DNA of 16,701 nt. Origin: a bacterium (GTDB lineage: Bacteria > SM23-31 > JAUVVT01). The stretch's first letter is position 1; every line of letters begins with the position of its first letter. Below the pieces are notes generated by a model. That model was given only the letters and a program-made list of their open reading frames with translations, was not told the DNA's origin and did no database searches. Positions 12,138-16,238 of this stretch are shown here, in pieces. The stretch is taken from assembly GCA_030616165.1 (NCBI GenBank), contig JAUWXV010000057.1, forward strand, positions 1 to 16,701, in the 5' to 3' direction. Position numbers and translations under genes: made by a program.

Positions 12138-12164
12138 CCTTACAAGCAAGAGGTCACTGATTTC
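12138..12164 (+). other. tRNA-Val(UAC)-like fragment, possible attachment-site remnant
   Basis: Positions 12138-12164 read like the anticodon loop, 3' anticodon stem, variable loop and T-stem start of bacterial tRNA-Val: CCTTACAAG (anticodon UAC at 12140-12142), GCAAG, AGGTC, ACTGATTTC. The 5' half of a tRNA is absent, and beyond 12164 the T-arm is not restored. A terminator follows at 12195. A 3' tRNA fragment is the classical footprint of integration into a tRNA gene, but divergence after the T-stem keeps this uncertain. Confidence 0.4.
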
Positions 12165-12625: not shown

Positions 12626-14269
12626 TTAGGTTACTTTTTCAAAAATAAACTTTATGCTGCTCTTCTTCTTTTTCGCTGCAATAGTTGGTTCTACATAAAA
12701 TGTTCCTGGTCCATCATAATGTATTCGTTGGGTTTTTCGTTTCGGTCGGTTTGGTTTTTTACTCGTAAGATATATTGCTGTAACAACTGCGTCCGTCAAA
12801 TCAGAATGGCCAAATTTATTACGGGGATGTGTAATAGAAAGTGCGTTACTTTTACTATAATACGCAATAGTTTGTATTAAGCCGCGTTTTAGTTCAAGGT
12901 TGTCTGGTAATCGTAAACGAGTTGCGATTAACAAACTTTTAAAATTAGAATATATTATGGGTAGTGCTTCACGGAATTCAACAACCAAACCAATCTTTTG
13001 TAATGCACCCTTAACCCACCCACCTGCATATCTATCTATACTTACGGAAGTGAATCCATATAATTCCTTTAAAACTTTTATTTCACTCATTATACGGTCT
13101 TGGTCTTTAGTTTGCCAAGAGCGTGTGAAGTCGACCAGGCTTACATCGTCCTCACGGTGGGAAATTGCTAAACTAAATCTGTCCCTACCGCTTAACCCTG
13201 ACTGGTCAATTCCGCACTCATAAACAACACCCTCTTTAGGTTTTACATTTCCTGCAATTACTAAACCTCTTATAATGTCATCGTAAGTAAAGTAACTTGA
13301 CTTTGTTTCAGCAAAAATTGCATTGTATTCACGGTTAAAGTTATCTATATCCCTCTCTTTTTCTTTTTTAAGGAATTTCTTACTAATGTGGGGGTTCATT
13401 GCTAATGTTCCGCCTCTTACCGTAAGTCTTTCTTTTATTTTAAATCCTTCATTGTATAAATCAAAAAATAGCCCTTGTTTGGCAGCAGGTGTGCTAATAA
13501 GTATTTTTTTAGGGTCACGGAATTGACTCATACGCGGTGTAATACTATTATGAATATCCACATCTGCTTTTACATATCCTTCACCAAAAAAGTGTGCTAC
13601 CTCGTCAAGTATAAAGCAGAAAACAGGCACACCTCGACCTACCCTGCTATTACAAGGAATTGATTTAATTATTAACCCATTTATAAATTTTAATTCGGTT
13701 GTAAGAGGAGTTCCGTCAACGTGGGTATGTAAAACGCTATTTAAAATTATATCAGTGCAATTTTTCTGAATTATGTCTTTACTTTGGTCAAGACTGGTAC
13801 TAACAATAATGCAATACCCACTTTCATTTGTTCTTAAACGCTCCCTCCAAATATGTCCCCTACATAACGTTTCATATAATGCAATTATTGAAGCCATAAA
13901 TGATTTACCACTACGTGCACCAAGACACCACACACCCTCTAATTTTTCTTTAGTTTGTGAAGCACGTTTACTTTTTTTACTTTTTAAAAGTCTTTGTGGT
14001 ACGGAAAGTCCGTATTGTCTACGCAGTAATAGTTCTTGGTTAGGATACAATGTAAGTCCAAGCAATTTTACAAACTCAATAATATCCATTGTCTTGAGGT
14101 CGTAACGTTTGTTTTTTACGGAACCAGGATTTACGGTCACTTTCTTTTTCCATCGCACTTGATTGGCCTTCACCAAGGCTAATCTTTGTCGCTCTCGTGC
14201 TTCGGGTGTTTTACCAGTTAGTTTTCCTTTTGGGTGCTTTGACCACTTTGTCTTTTTTCGTTCTGGCAT
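12626..14269 (-). CDS. Phage terminase large subunit (TerL)
   Basis: A 547-residue packaging motor protein. The ATPase domain has Walker A GARSGKS (117-123), Walker B VFCFILDE (216-223, D222/E223) and the coupling motif STP (259-261). The C-terminal RNase H-like nuclease has D355 in ECGIDQSG, D412 in VSIDRYAGGW, and D490/D493 in HSDLTDAVV. The N-terminus is basic. AGGAG at 14276-14280 (complement) supports the start. TerL pumps DNA into the prohead and cuts it. Length is normal and no frameshift is seen. It is the last gene of the leftward phage block. The portal, protease and capsid genes that normally follow are absent, and DNA beyond it is non-coding. Confidence 0.93.
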   Translation of the reverse strand: MPERKKTKWSKHPKGKLTGKTPEARERQRLALVKANQVRWKKKVTVNPGSVKNKRYDLKTMDIIEFVKLLGLTLYPNQELLLRRQYGLSVPQRLLKSKKSKRASQTKEKLEGVWCLGARSGKSFMASIIALYETLCRGHIWRERLRTNESGYCIIVSTSLDQSKDIIQKNCTDIILNSVLHTHVDGTPLTTELKFINGLIIKSIPCNSRVGRGVPVFCFILDEVAHFFGEGYVKADVDIHNSITPRMSQFRDPKKILISTPAAKQGLFFDLYNEGFKIKERLTVRGGTLAMNPHISKKFLKKEKERDIDNFNREYNAIFAETKSSYFTYDDIIRGLVIAGNVKPKEGVVYECGIDQSGLSGRDRFSLAISHREDDVSLVDFTRSWQTKDQDRIMSEIKVLKELYGFTSVSIDRYAGGWVKGALQKIGLVVEFREALPIIYSNFKSLLIATRLRLPDNLELKRGLIQTIAYYSKSNALSITHPRNKFGHSDLTDAVVTAIYLTSKKPNRPKRKTQRIHYDGPGTFYVEPTIAAKKKKSSIKFIFEKVT

Positions 14270-14300
14270 TTTAATCTCCTGTAAAATTTATAGGGTAAAA

Positions 14301-14329
14301 AAGGTCTGCATTTGTTCAATACAGACCTT
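14301..14329 (-). terminator. Terminator after the recombinase gene
   Basis: AAGGTCTG (14301-14308) and CAGACCTT (14322-14329) form a perfect 8-bp stem. Read on the - strand, the stem is followed by a run of Ts (complement of 14297-14300 continuing from the stem). It separates the recombinase from terL, so terL probably relies on read-through or its own promoter. Confidence 0.75.
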
Positions 14330-14354
14330 CATACTTTCTATTGCGTCTTACAAC

Positions 14355-14972
14355 CTATATTTCGTGTTTAAAAGCGGCTTTCACTTGTTCATCATCTATA
14401 CAAAGGTAATCTAATGTTTGGCGTTGAGTTGAATGATTAAAACATTTAACTAACGTTGTAATTGGTGTCCCGTTTCTATTTGAATGATAACCCCAAGTTT
14501 TTCTCAACGTGTGTGCACCTACCTTGGCTTTTAAACCTATTTGTTTGCACCACTTACGAACTAAATAATTAACGTGAATTGGATTTAGAAACCCTGTTTT
14601 GTTGTTGTAATTCGGTTTAAATAACGCAGTATTCTTTTTTGAATTTGAATAAGGTTTTGTTCTAAGTAGTCTCCGTATTACCGTGATACATTGATTATTC
14701 AAATATACTTTACGCCGTTTTTTCGTCTTTTTTTCGATAATAACAAAGTGTTCCATTAATTTTAAACCTTCAACTTGACCAATCGTAATTCTTACTAAAT
14801 CTACCGCTCTCAAGTTTGTGTTAATTCCAATAACGAACAACGCAAGGTCGCGTAAATTGTCTTGTAGTAACTTCTTAATTGCTTTGATGTCGTCAGGGTT
14901 TCTAATTGGTTCGATAAGTTTTGGTGTACCTTTAGGTGACGCATTGTAATTTTCACCTTTTCTCATTGCCAT
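14355..14972 (-). CDS. Small phage tyrosine recombinase/integrase
   Basis: A 205-residue, catalytic-domain-only tyrosine recombinase. The active-site set is complete: R55 (GINTNLRAVDL), H154 and R157 (KVGAHTLRKTWGYH), H180 (CFNHST) and Y189 (LDYL). A lysine-rich beta hairpin (IIEKKTKKRRKVYL, 78-91) supplies the catalytic-lysine region. There is no N-terminal core-binding domain, unlike full integrases of 350 residues or more. Such short forms, starting NP-DI--IKK-L, are known among Firmicutes-like phages and mobile elements. TCCTCC at 14981-14986 (complement) gives a strong ribosome binding site. It overlaps the upstream small membrane gene by 10 bases and is followed by a terminator. Whether it integrates this element or resolves genome multimers is unknown. 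Confidence 0.85.
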   Translation of the reverse strand: MAMRKGENYNASPKGTPKLIEPIRNPDDIKAIKKLLQDNLRDLALFVIGINTNLRAVDLVRITIGQVEGLKLMEHFVIIEKKTKKRRKVYLNNQCITVIRRLLRTKPYSNSKKNTALFKPNYNNKTGFLNPIHVNYLVRKWCKQIGLKAKVGAHTLRKTWGYHSNRNGTPITTLVKCFNHSTQRQTLDYLCIDDEQVKAAFKHEI

Positions 14973-15181
14973 TTTAAATTTCCTCCTTTTTTTGTTTTTG
15001 TTATAGTTGAACCGTACTTCAAATAATTATATAACTTTATGCTTACCTCATTCATTTTCTGAATTCCTAAGAATTTAACTTTTTGATGTCCGCACGGTTT
15101 ACGTTTCGCTGCAATTAGTAATGATAGATAGAAGATTAGCAGAACAATGTAAATGGCTGCAATAATAATTATGTATTTCAT
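14963..15181 (-). CDS. Small membrane protein, phage module
   Basis: A 72-residue protein with one strong N-terminal membrane segment (about 3-24, IIIIAAIYIVLLIFYLSLLIAA) and a basic soluble tail (KRKPCGH..., ending TKKGGNLKWQ). GGAGGTGA precedes the start. The ATG overlaps the stop of the upstream gene (ATGA at 15178-15181), and its end overlaps the recombinase start by 10 bases, so it is translationally coupled on both sides. I do not recognise a family. The orientation would leave the basic tail in the cytoplasm. A holin role is not supported by position. Confidence 0.65.
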   Translation of the reverse strand: MKYIIIIAAIYIVLLIFYLSLLIAAKRKPCGHQKVKFLGIQKMNEVSIKLYNYLKYGSTITKTKKGGNLKWQ

Positions 15182-15756
15182 TGTGAACTCACCTCCCTAT
15201 CAAATTCTTGTTGTTCTTTTTCAACCTGTTTTTTTAATTTCAAATACTTCCTACTTGTAAAGATGTTGGGTGACGCGTCTACCGCTTCGCAACCCATATG
15301 ACACCAATGAGAACATACCCAAACACCTTTTACAAAATTACCTTCTATAAGGTCTTTATCGTCCCAATGATGATACGCTAATATTAAAGGTTTACCTTTA
15401 CTGGTTTTGTTTTTGTTACAAAGTTCGCACCGTCCTTCTTTTGGATGGTCTCTTTTGATTATGTGGAAATGTTTATCGTTAACCAAAAGAACTTTTCTTC
15501 TCCATTTTCTTGATGCTTCTCTTTCCTGTTCAATTACTTTCTCCCTATTATTTTTACGGCGTTCTTTGTGATACTTATTATCGCATTCTTTACACCAAAC
15601 CCCTAATTCGTCTTCTCTACTTTTATCTTTATTAAATTCCGTTTTCAATTTTCGCTTCCCACAATTCGTACATCGTTTCTTTTCTGCTTCCCGTTTAAGA
15701 GCGTTTAATTCTGCTGTACTTATTTCAACCATTTTTTCTAACATAATTACCTCCAT
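15178..15756 (-). CDS. Zinc-binding HNH-endonuclease-like phage protein
   Basis: A 192-residue protein with two zinc modules. The first has C29-x2-C32 and C55-x2-C58, the CTNCGKRKLKTEFNKDK...WCKECDNKYHKERR pattern common at the N-terminus of phage HNH proteins. A charged helical linker follows (64-90). The second is C110-x2-C113, H129-H130 in YHHWDD, and C148/C152/C156 in VCSHWCHMGC, which resembles an HNH/His-Me finger with the HH pair. HNH proteins near terL assist DNA packaging in several tailed phages (established), so its position upstream of terL fits. Two starts are possible. ATG at 15744 has GGAGGT just before it (giving 188 residues), and ATG at 15756 lies four bases after the preceding stop. 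Confidence 0.65.
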   Translation of the reverse strand: MEVIMLEKMVEISTAELNALKREAEKKRCTNCGKRKLKTEFNKDKSREDELGVWCKECDNKYHKERRKNNREKVIEQEREASRKWRRKVLLVNDKHFHIIKRDHPKEGRCELCNKNKTSKGKPLILAYHHWDDKDLIEGNFVKGVWVCSHWCHMGCEAVDASPNIFTSRKYLKLKKQVEKEQQEFDREVSSQ

Positions 15757-15759
15757 TTT

Positions 15760-16074
15760 TTATTCCTCTTCCCACTTTGAAATAATAAATTGTACAACTT
15801 TTAATTCATTTGCTGTAAGTTCCCTGCCGTTTTCTGTTTTACTAATTGATTGAATGTCCTCGTCAAGAATTTCTGGGTCTCTAAAATCCGAAACGTTGTT
15901 TGCGACCGTACTTGCAAAGTCCATTAAGTCGATTTCGTTTTTACCACAAAATCCTTCAATTAATTGTATTAAGTATTGCGTATCGTGTAACTCCTCACCC
16001 TCTTCAAACGAAATGTTAAAAAAACTAATTATTTCGTTTATTGTTTCTTTCATTTGTTTTTGTAGTTTGTTCAT
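15760..16074 (-). CDS. Acidic hypothetical phage protein
   Basis: A 104-residue, strongly acidic, apparently all-helical protein, for example MKETINEIISFFNISFEEGEE, LIQLIEGFCGKNEIDLMDFAS and a C-terminal ELTANELKVVQFIISKWEEE helix. GGAGGTAA at 16083-16088 (complement) supports the start. It precedes the zinc protein by a few bases in the same direction. I recognise no domain. Size and charge would suit a small DNA-mimic, chaperone or packaging accessory, but nothing specific supports any of these. It might be a terminase small subunit by position, though no helix-turn-helix is evident. Confidence 0.6.
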   Translation of the reverse strand: MNKLQKQMKETINEIISFFNISFEEGEELHDTQYLIQLIEGFCGKNEIDLMDFASTVANNVSDFRDPEILDEDIQSISKTENGRELTANELKVVQFIISKWEEE

Positions 16075-16100: not shown

Positions 16101-16151
16101 TGGTTTGAACGCAGCAGAAGAATCGAACTTCTGCTTGTTCCAAACTGCGTT
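16101..16151 (-). ncRNA. tRNA-like acceptor/T-arm minihelix (no D or anticodon arm)
   Basis: Read on the - strand: AACGCAG (16151-16145), a linker of about 11 bases, CAGAAG, the loop TTCGATT (16127-16121), CTTCTG, CTGCGTT or TGCGTT, then C-AAA-CCA ending at 16101. G before and C after the TTCGATT loop are the canonical tRNA positions 53-61. The T-stem and acceptor stem together give 13 contiguous base pairs, close to the 12 of a tRNA. D and anticodon arms are replaced by the short linker. It lies in the 80-base gap between two phage genes. It could be a deleted tRNA or a functional minihelix; expression is unknown. Confidence 0.5.
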
Positions 16152-16154
16152 ATT

Positions 16155-16238
16155 TTACTTTTTTATCATTACTATCAAAAAATAAATTGCACCTACTATA
16201 TAAATAGAACTACTAATAATGGACATTATTTCTGACAT
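16155..16238 (-). CDS. 27-residue single-span membrane peptide
   Basis: A short ORF starting at 16238, with GGAGGT at 16243-16248 (complement) five bases upstream. It is the best-supported start in this stretch, and a longer in-frame ORF reaching 16487 overlaps a better gene and is rejected. The peptide is one hydrophobic helix with a KK end (SSSIYIVGAIYFLIVMIKK). Its ribosome-site context TTGGAGGTAA is shared with the next gene down. It sits just before the tRNA-like structure. Function is unknown. Toxin-like or membrane-anchoring peptides of this size exist in phages, but nothing here decides. Confidence 0.55.
   Translation of the reverse strand: MSEIMSIISSSIYIVGAIYFLIVMIKK

Follow-up and report, generated by a model that had tools for sequence, protein, structure and literature searches.

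What does a tRNA-like minihelix do between two genes of a phage operon? The question is raised by the window, by which we mean the whole stretch of 16,701 nt analysed here, an entire contig of a host assembly beyond which the phage extends. An earlier sequence-only reading had described a 13-bp helix, a perfect T-loop, a linker of about 11 bases and a CAAACCA end, all of which are indeed present in the minus-strand sequence, and had suggested that this acceptor/T-arm minihelix could be an operon signal, a sponge for tRNA-handling enzymes, a tmRNA mimic or a deleted tRNA. The parts of the window copy are as follows.

16108 to 16151, minus strand: the mini-tRNA-like element as a whole, with a 7-bp acceptor, a D-like linker and a 6-bp T-arm.
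16145 to 16151, minus strand: 5' strand of the acceptor, AACGCAG, pairing with 16108-16114 (two-sided changes at 7/7 pairs in 50 sequences).
16134 to 16144, minus strand: linker of 11 nt, TTTGGAACAAG, with a mini D-stem (U16144-A16138 and U16143-A16139) and the triloop UGG (16142-16140).
16115 to 16133, minus strand: T-arm, a 6-bp stem CAGAAG/CTTCTG (16133-16128 and 16120-16115, read from the sequence) closing the T-loop TTCGATT (16127-16121), in which TTC-A-T is invariant (50/50 copies).
16108 to 16114, minus strand: 3' strand of the acceptor, CTGCGTT, placed by covariation.
16107, minus strand: conserved C directly 3' of the acceptor, resembling tRNA position 73 (47/50 distinct copies).

The stems of this copy add up to 13 bp (7 + 6), and a T-arm joined to a perfect 7-bp acceptor would occur by chance in 0.03% of 16.7-kb windows, as judged from Markov sequences of matched composition. 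The copy scores 69.7 bits against covariance model R1, of which it is one of the training sequences, and 64 bits against model R2 (E 2.7e-15, whole host genome searched). Scoring with tRNA models, which had been proposed as a check, yielded nothing in the window: ARAGORN made no call, and neither the tRNA family (RF00005) nor any other Rfam family matched at its gathering score. Rfam 15 likewise gave no gathering-score match on the element in a scan of the window and in permissive scans of the contigs that carry further copies, and ARAGORN called none of the elements in the contigs with arrays. The tmRNA family (RF00023) was rejected as an identity, as it produced only T-arm fragments of 14-18 bits against a gathering score of 47; with no tag ORF and nothing beyond these sub-threshold matches, the tmRNA mimic was dropped.

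Around the element, the phage genes form a co-directional operon on the minus strand, which runs from a 147-aa ORF, open at the contig end, through a 27-aa ORF, the element, a 104-aa gene, an HNH/endonuclease VII-like gene, a 72-aa ORF and a tyrosine integrase gene to that of the terminase large subunit.

16155 to 16238, minus strand: upstream small ORF of 27 aa with one membrane-like hydrophobic stretch (sequence, ORF scan), its UAA 3 nt upstream of the element.
15760 to 16074, minus strand: downstream gene of 104 aa, starting 33 nt past the acceptor, with GGAGG at 16088-16084.
12626 to 15756, minus strand: remaining phage operon (this and the next three by PHROGs and Pfam).
15178 to 15756, minus strand: HNH/endonuclease VII-like gene.
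14355 to 14972, minus strand: tyrosine integrase gene, separated from the preceding gene by the 72-aa ORF.
12626 to 14269, minus strand: gene for the terminase large subunit.

Terminase and integrase have distant relatives only, a search for homologues of the 104-aa protein found none, and the proteins flanking the element have no relatives close enough for a comparison of covariation. On its left, the phage region is bordered by 25 nt (12138-12162) with 92% identity to the anticodon-to-T-arm part of a host tRNA-Val(TAC) (locus L009), a remnant that is probably an integration scar or att site. An origin of the element itself as attP or as a tRNA 3' end was rejected, its 3' part being a misfit to a tRNA end and the prophage edge near the tRNA-Val remnant lying about 4 kb away. 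Between integrase and terminase, 14301-14330 on the minus strand form a strong, terminator-like hairpin followed by TTTTTT (z -6.8).

Comparison with relatives required finding them, and blastn searches of phages, plasmids and the host genome with the window hairpin gave no useful match. An exact search of IMG/VR with the 19-nt T-arm returned four contigs, one of which (L039) also has a similar linker enclosed by a perfect 7-bp acceptor. A pattern that fixed linker and T-loop and left both stems free matched 23 stretches; most lacked a paired T-stem, while three (L062, L064 and L071) were paired throughout. Two further patterns with the shared linker added about 25 contigs with the same division. 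Since the pattern matches split into those fully paired and those with most pairs missing, the family is not a product of the filter. Model R1 then returned copies that no pattern had picked, and the IMG/VR scans and covariance model together place the element in about 30 other viral contigs among the matches listed. In 193 host-chromosome genomes the only strong match was the window's own copy, all others staying at or below 25 bits (E above 0.003), and 289 other genomes, searched with stricter filters, gave no strong match.

In a gapless alignment of nine sequences, 99.1% of cells are paired and two-sided changes occur at 10/13 pairs. The main alignment holds 60 matches, 50 of them distinct, from 31 sequence stretches. 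Standard pairs fill 98.1% of the pair cells of the 50 distinct copies, and two-sided changes number 232 cells, compared with 55 in shuffles and at most 53 with slid partners, counts that lean towards the model because the alignments are model-fitted. The T-stem is paired in 99.7% of cells, with two-sided changes at 5/6 pairs. Each position of the triloop UGG is kept in at least 48/50 copies, its first G in all 50, although linker and T-loop were the basis on which the first contigs were picked, so that in those contigs part of the conservation follows from the choice; this bias is weaker for copies that the models alone recovered and for the cultured phages, even if the models score linker and T-loop too. 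The linker mini-stem varies as pairs, the first being C-G in 34, U-A in 8 and A-U in 5 copies and the second U-A in 41 and A-U in 7. A third pair, G8-C19, which would compete with the acceptor, showed no two-sided changes and was discarded. The acceptor/T stack is 13 bp in most copies and 12 bp in some (e.g., exactly 12 in L138:7100).

Compensatory changes in both stems with the T-loop kept, by which the sequence-only reading had proposed to judge the minihelix, are present across the 50 distinct copies; relatives without T-loop or compensatory pairs, which it had named as contrary evidence, were looked for, and this is not what the relatives look like. An acceptor helix on a T-arm with a consensus T-loop, the mark of a tRNA-like elbow or minihelix, is seen in pairing and loop sequence, with the two helices presumably stacked. 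In the D-loop of tRNA, G18 and G19 pair with T-loop bases 55 and 56, and the UGG of the element would correspond to U17-G18-G19. Compared in this way, the element resembles the elbow and acceptor stem of a tRNA, equipped with a miniature D-arm and lacking an anticodon domain. The claim that a linker replaces the D and anticodon arms therefore stands as to its 11 nt and the missing anticodon domain, but the linker is not plain, as it carries a D-loop-like UGG in a covarying mini-stem. The proposed 3' CAAACCA/CCA tail did not hold up: it is not conserved, relatives keeping only the C right after the acceptor, and on this comparison the CCA of the window is a coincidence of that copy.

Judged by these alignments, the element is a conserved RNA-like family and not a chance hairpin. 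That it arose by chance or as a decayed tRNA is hardly conceivable: the flanking genes without found relatives would fit such an origin, but at least 50 distinct sequences, massive covariation, arrays and a fixed position speak against it, and the deleted tRNA of the earlier reading is excluded by a family this widespread and uniform.

The window RNA folded alone presents a different picture, namely a second structure that overlaps the minihelix.

16103 to 16145, minus strand: competing hairpin, GUUUGGA/UUCAAAC, a 3x3 loop and AGCAGAAG/CUUCUGCU, from the minimum-free-energy fold of the window copy only.

With flanks, this hairpin reaches -19.0 kcal/mol compared with -13.3 kcal/mol for the minihelix, and the acceptor pairs have a probability of about 0.001. 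Folded without flanks, 42/50 copies, the window copy among them, have a mean acceptor pair probability above 0.5. Because the energy model leaves out coaxial stacking across the bulge and docking of the D-loop with the T-loop, the single-sequence fold against the minihelix is not decisive, and because that fold prefers the other hairpin, the minihelix of the window is established only by comparison with relatives, by which the competing hairpin is not a family feature. The fold does bear on a plainer explanation, in which the element is a passive mRNA stabiliser, terminator or antiterminator hairpin with incidental likeness to tRNA. The window copy folds as a plain hairpin with 18-nt arms, and structured intercistronic RNA is common in phage operons; yet T-loop and UGG are near invariant while the stems vary freely, a constraint unneeded in a plain hairpin, and there is no U-tract behind the element, which makes this explanation improbable. 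As an intrinsic terminator it was rejected outright, as no U-tract follows the hairpin directly and the terminator scan does not list it.

We then consider where the copies lie, a property that was never a search criterion as far as stop codons are concerned. Among 53 copies with enough flanking sequence, counting upstream co-directional ORFs of at least 35 codons, 48 start between -20 and +7 nt from the stop of the upstream ORF (random positions, 11%). The last base of the stop codon is element position 2 in 16/53, so that UAA or UAG is common to stop and acceptor, and the stop lies inside the acceptor in 5/53. The next ORF starts a median of 39.5 nt past the element, and an AGGAG-type ribosome site follows many copies. 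Furthermore, a second hairpin, with a folding energy of -4 kcal/mol or lower, begins 1-3 nt past the acceptor in 40/53 copies (random, 12.5%), and its stems differ between contigs with pairing kept (TTGGAC/GTCCA, TCGGAC/GTCCG, ACGGT/GCCGT, ATGGC/GCCAT). The fixed place at the stop codon, about 40 nt before the next start, could suit a translation element, a tRNA mimic acting on the ribosome in, e.g., termination, recycling or re-initiation, like intergenic IRES mimics. We consider this unlikely, as the ordinary AGGAG-type site behind many copies makes special initiation unneeded and the anticodon end, the part of ribosome mimics that touches the mRNA, is missing.

Several contigs carry the element repeatedly (11 copies in G208, 8 in G199, 5 in G206, 4 in G207 and 4 in G209), at roughly one for each small gene, in the same orientation and inside one operon. 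Between neighbouring elements of G208 there is mostly one small ORF, ending between -10 and +2 of the next element, and in array contigs of 17-69 kb all copies sit together within a few kilobases. The constant orientation, with each small ORF having its own element and its stop at that element, also recalls a site at which phages shuffle small genes as DNA cassettes, like an integron attC or a recombination hotspot, and the window does contain an integrase gene. The attC core boxes RYYYAAC and GTTRRRY are absent, however, and the kept elbow bases and compensatory stems point to RNA, so we regard such a site as very unlikely. Direct comparison with integron attC failed as well: the elements begin with AGGGTAG, AGGATAG, GCCCCTG and others, and past the acceptor stands a C in place of a run of purines. 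As many as 11 copies in one phage would also suit a decoy or sponge that captures tRNA-handling enzymes or defence nucleases directed at tRNA, a highly improbable function that accounts neither for the regular placement of one copy at the stop of each gene nor for the second hairpin. The window copy itself is solitary, and its second hairpin is weak (-2.5 kcal/mol). As a single instance with a competing hairpin and a weak second one, it is less certain to be active than the array copies.

Model R2, built before any cultured-phage sequence was seen, was matched 11 times in Gordonia phage Morgana (PP537962.1), 10 times in Gordonia phage Cafasso (MZ322021.1) and once in Mycobacterium phage Conspiracy (NC_022973.1), whose annotated host is M. 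smegmatis mc2 155, a few of these matches being weak. In blastn with a G208 copy, the matches in four Gordonia phages coincide exactly with the element. Pairing in the cultured-phage set is 89% compared with at most 55% for slid partners, and two-sided changes number 44 compared with 16 in shuffles. According to the depositors' own gene calls, 12/17 copies in Morgana, Cafasso and Conspiracy start within -10 to +2 of an annotated stop. The family appears widespread in uncultured phages and present also in these Gordonia and Mycobacterium isolates, for which laboratory hosts exist. The idea of an acceptor/T-arm minihelix as an operon signal thus gains from the covariation of both stems, the intercistronic place, the arrays and the annotated gene ends in cultured phages. 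In Morgana, annotated gene 150, which may be a wrong gene call, contains a weaker tandem copy (L189:4403-4450, record positions 77308-77355). In Conspiracy a -35-like box, TTGACA, stands directly 3' of the element (L191:728-780), and the T-arm piece of this element also occurs in 49 mycobacteriophages by blastn.

In order to rationalise the observed family, with its structure, position, arrays and second hairpin, we infer that the element acts as RNA and, with this, which enzymes read it, where they cut and what this does to the mRNA. We propose, with a probability of about 0.5, that the element is intercistronic punctuation, a tRNA mimic through which the tRNA-maturation enzymes of the host would generate mRNA ends, a 3' cut being the more likely way. 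In the transcript the element would fold into a tRNA elbow and acceptor stem, the host enzymes would bind the folded RNA, and an mRNA end would be made there. An RNase Z-like cut on the 3' side, after the conserved C, would spare the stop codon of the upstream mRNA and give that mRNA a structured, tRNA-like 3' end, and the second hairpin would come to lie almost at the 5' end of the downstream mRNA, where it could be protective, a hairpin at an mRNA 5' end being a known way to slow decay. The wider proposal, which we put forward tentatively from sequence comparison, is that tailed phages run tRNA punctuation: minimal mimics behind each stop would have host enzymes dice a polycistronic transcript into single mRNAs, each capped at the 3' end by a tRNA-like structure and protected at the 5' end by a hairpin.

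Against punctuation we count that no 3' CCA, which helps RNase P, is conserved and that the stack is 13 bp in most copies compared with 12 bp in tRNAs, and, for the window, a solitary copy with a weak second hairpin whose own sequence favours the competing hairpin. The 3' RCCA motif of RNase P substrates is absent, the C right after the acceptor alone being conserved in the 50 distinct copies. The missing motif and the 13-bp stack weigh on a doubtful variant in which RNase P cuts 5' of the acceptor and thereby separates the cistrons, possibly removing the stop to down-regulate the upstream gene. RNase P cuts model hairpins of acceptor, T-stem and T-loop, and its non-tRNA substrates include phage M3 and C4 RNA, plant-virus tRNA-like ends and mRNAs, polycistronic ones among them (PMC11143913). 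For binding by RNase P the T-loop, G19, G53 and A58 are important (PMC11143913), their equivalents are conserved in the element, and some copies have exactly 12 bp, as at L138:7100. A canonical cut before the acceptor, however, would hit the stop codon or a point upstream of it in at least 21/53 copies and produce non-stop mRNAs; for this reason punctuation by a 3' cut is favoured over a 5' cut by RNase P.

Among known systems, the punctuation reading finds its closest parallel in organelles, where RNase P and RNase Z cleave mitochondrial mRNAs at tRNAs. In both, units shaped like tRNAs separate reading frames, frequently overlap the stop and are arrayed along the transcript, but the organellar units are complete functional tRNAs, whereas the phage elements are mimics of about 44 nt without an anticodon domain, known from sequence. 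RNase P model hairpins share the same minimal domain but are laboratory designs. The phi80 M3 RNA and the P1/P7 C4 RNA are phage RNAs read by RNase P, as single RNAs, and we know of no arrays of M3 or C4 after stop codons. PeSL and other repeated intergenic phage stem-loops resemble the element as repeated modules between small phage genes, but they carry promoters or terminators and lack the tRNA elbow. mascRNA/menRNA (RF01684) is also a small tRNA-like RNA cut from a longer transcript, although one of vertebrate nuclear lncRNA, unlike the phage element; against one longer tRNA-like sequence in L064 its model stayed below threshold (25.9 bits vs 42.5). Viral 3' tRNA-like structures such as that of TYMV, which RNase P cleaves (PMC11143913), share an acceptor-like helix and a T-loop elbow mimic on viral RNA. 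The TYMV type is single, sits at the 3' end of a plant RNA virus genome and uses a pseudoknot and CCA, whereas the phage element is repeated, intercistronic and away from the genome terminus, with a two-strand acceptor and without CCA. By analogy, the element may resemble organellar punctuation and viral tRNA-like structures in possible role, not in build.

A search covering 5.39 million open papers found no report of such elements. The element seems to be a new, unnamed RNA family whose best-supported mode of working is that of known tRNA mimics. If the punctuation reading is true, tRNA punctuation, known from organelles, extends to phages, recognition of the elbow by tRNA enzymes can be studied on a natural minimal substrate, and the processing of long phage operons made up of small unknown genes becomes more accessible.

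Further tRNA-like and repeated sequences were noted in the same material. Two phages with the element hold longer tRNA-like variants, L138:5905-5977 and L136:16216-16261 (minus strand), with 43-nt and 24-nt inserts in place of the linker, the latter standing in line with the mini-element array; they are possible intermediates between tRNA and the mini form. A 129-nt phage tRNA with an insert (L041:4359-4487) reaches 44 bits with the Rfam tRNA model, is missed by ARAGORN and is followed by two more T-arm-like hairpins. A repeated intergenic sequence resembling ACCTTGYGGTGTATAGGTCAACCG occurs at L136:12840-13160 (minus strand) and, downstream of the element, in L139 and L184, and sits at junctions without a mini-tRNA element or adjoining one. 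Finally, the crAss-like phage cr10_1 contains an unannotated tRNA-like structure (L144:1448-1528) with a 7-bp acceptor, GGAAGAG/CTCTTCC, and the T-loop TTCGATT, located between two genes just upstream of the DNA polymerase.
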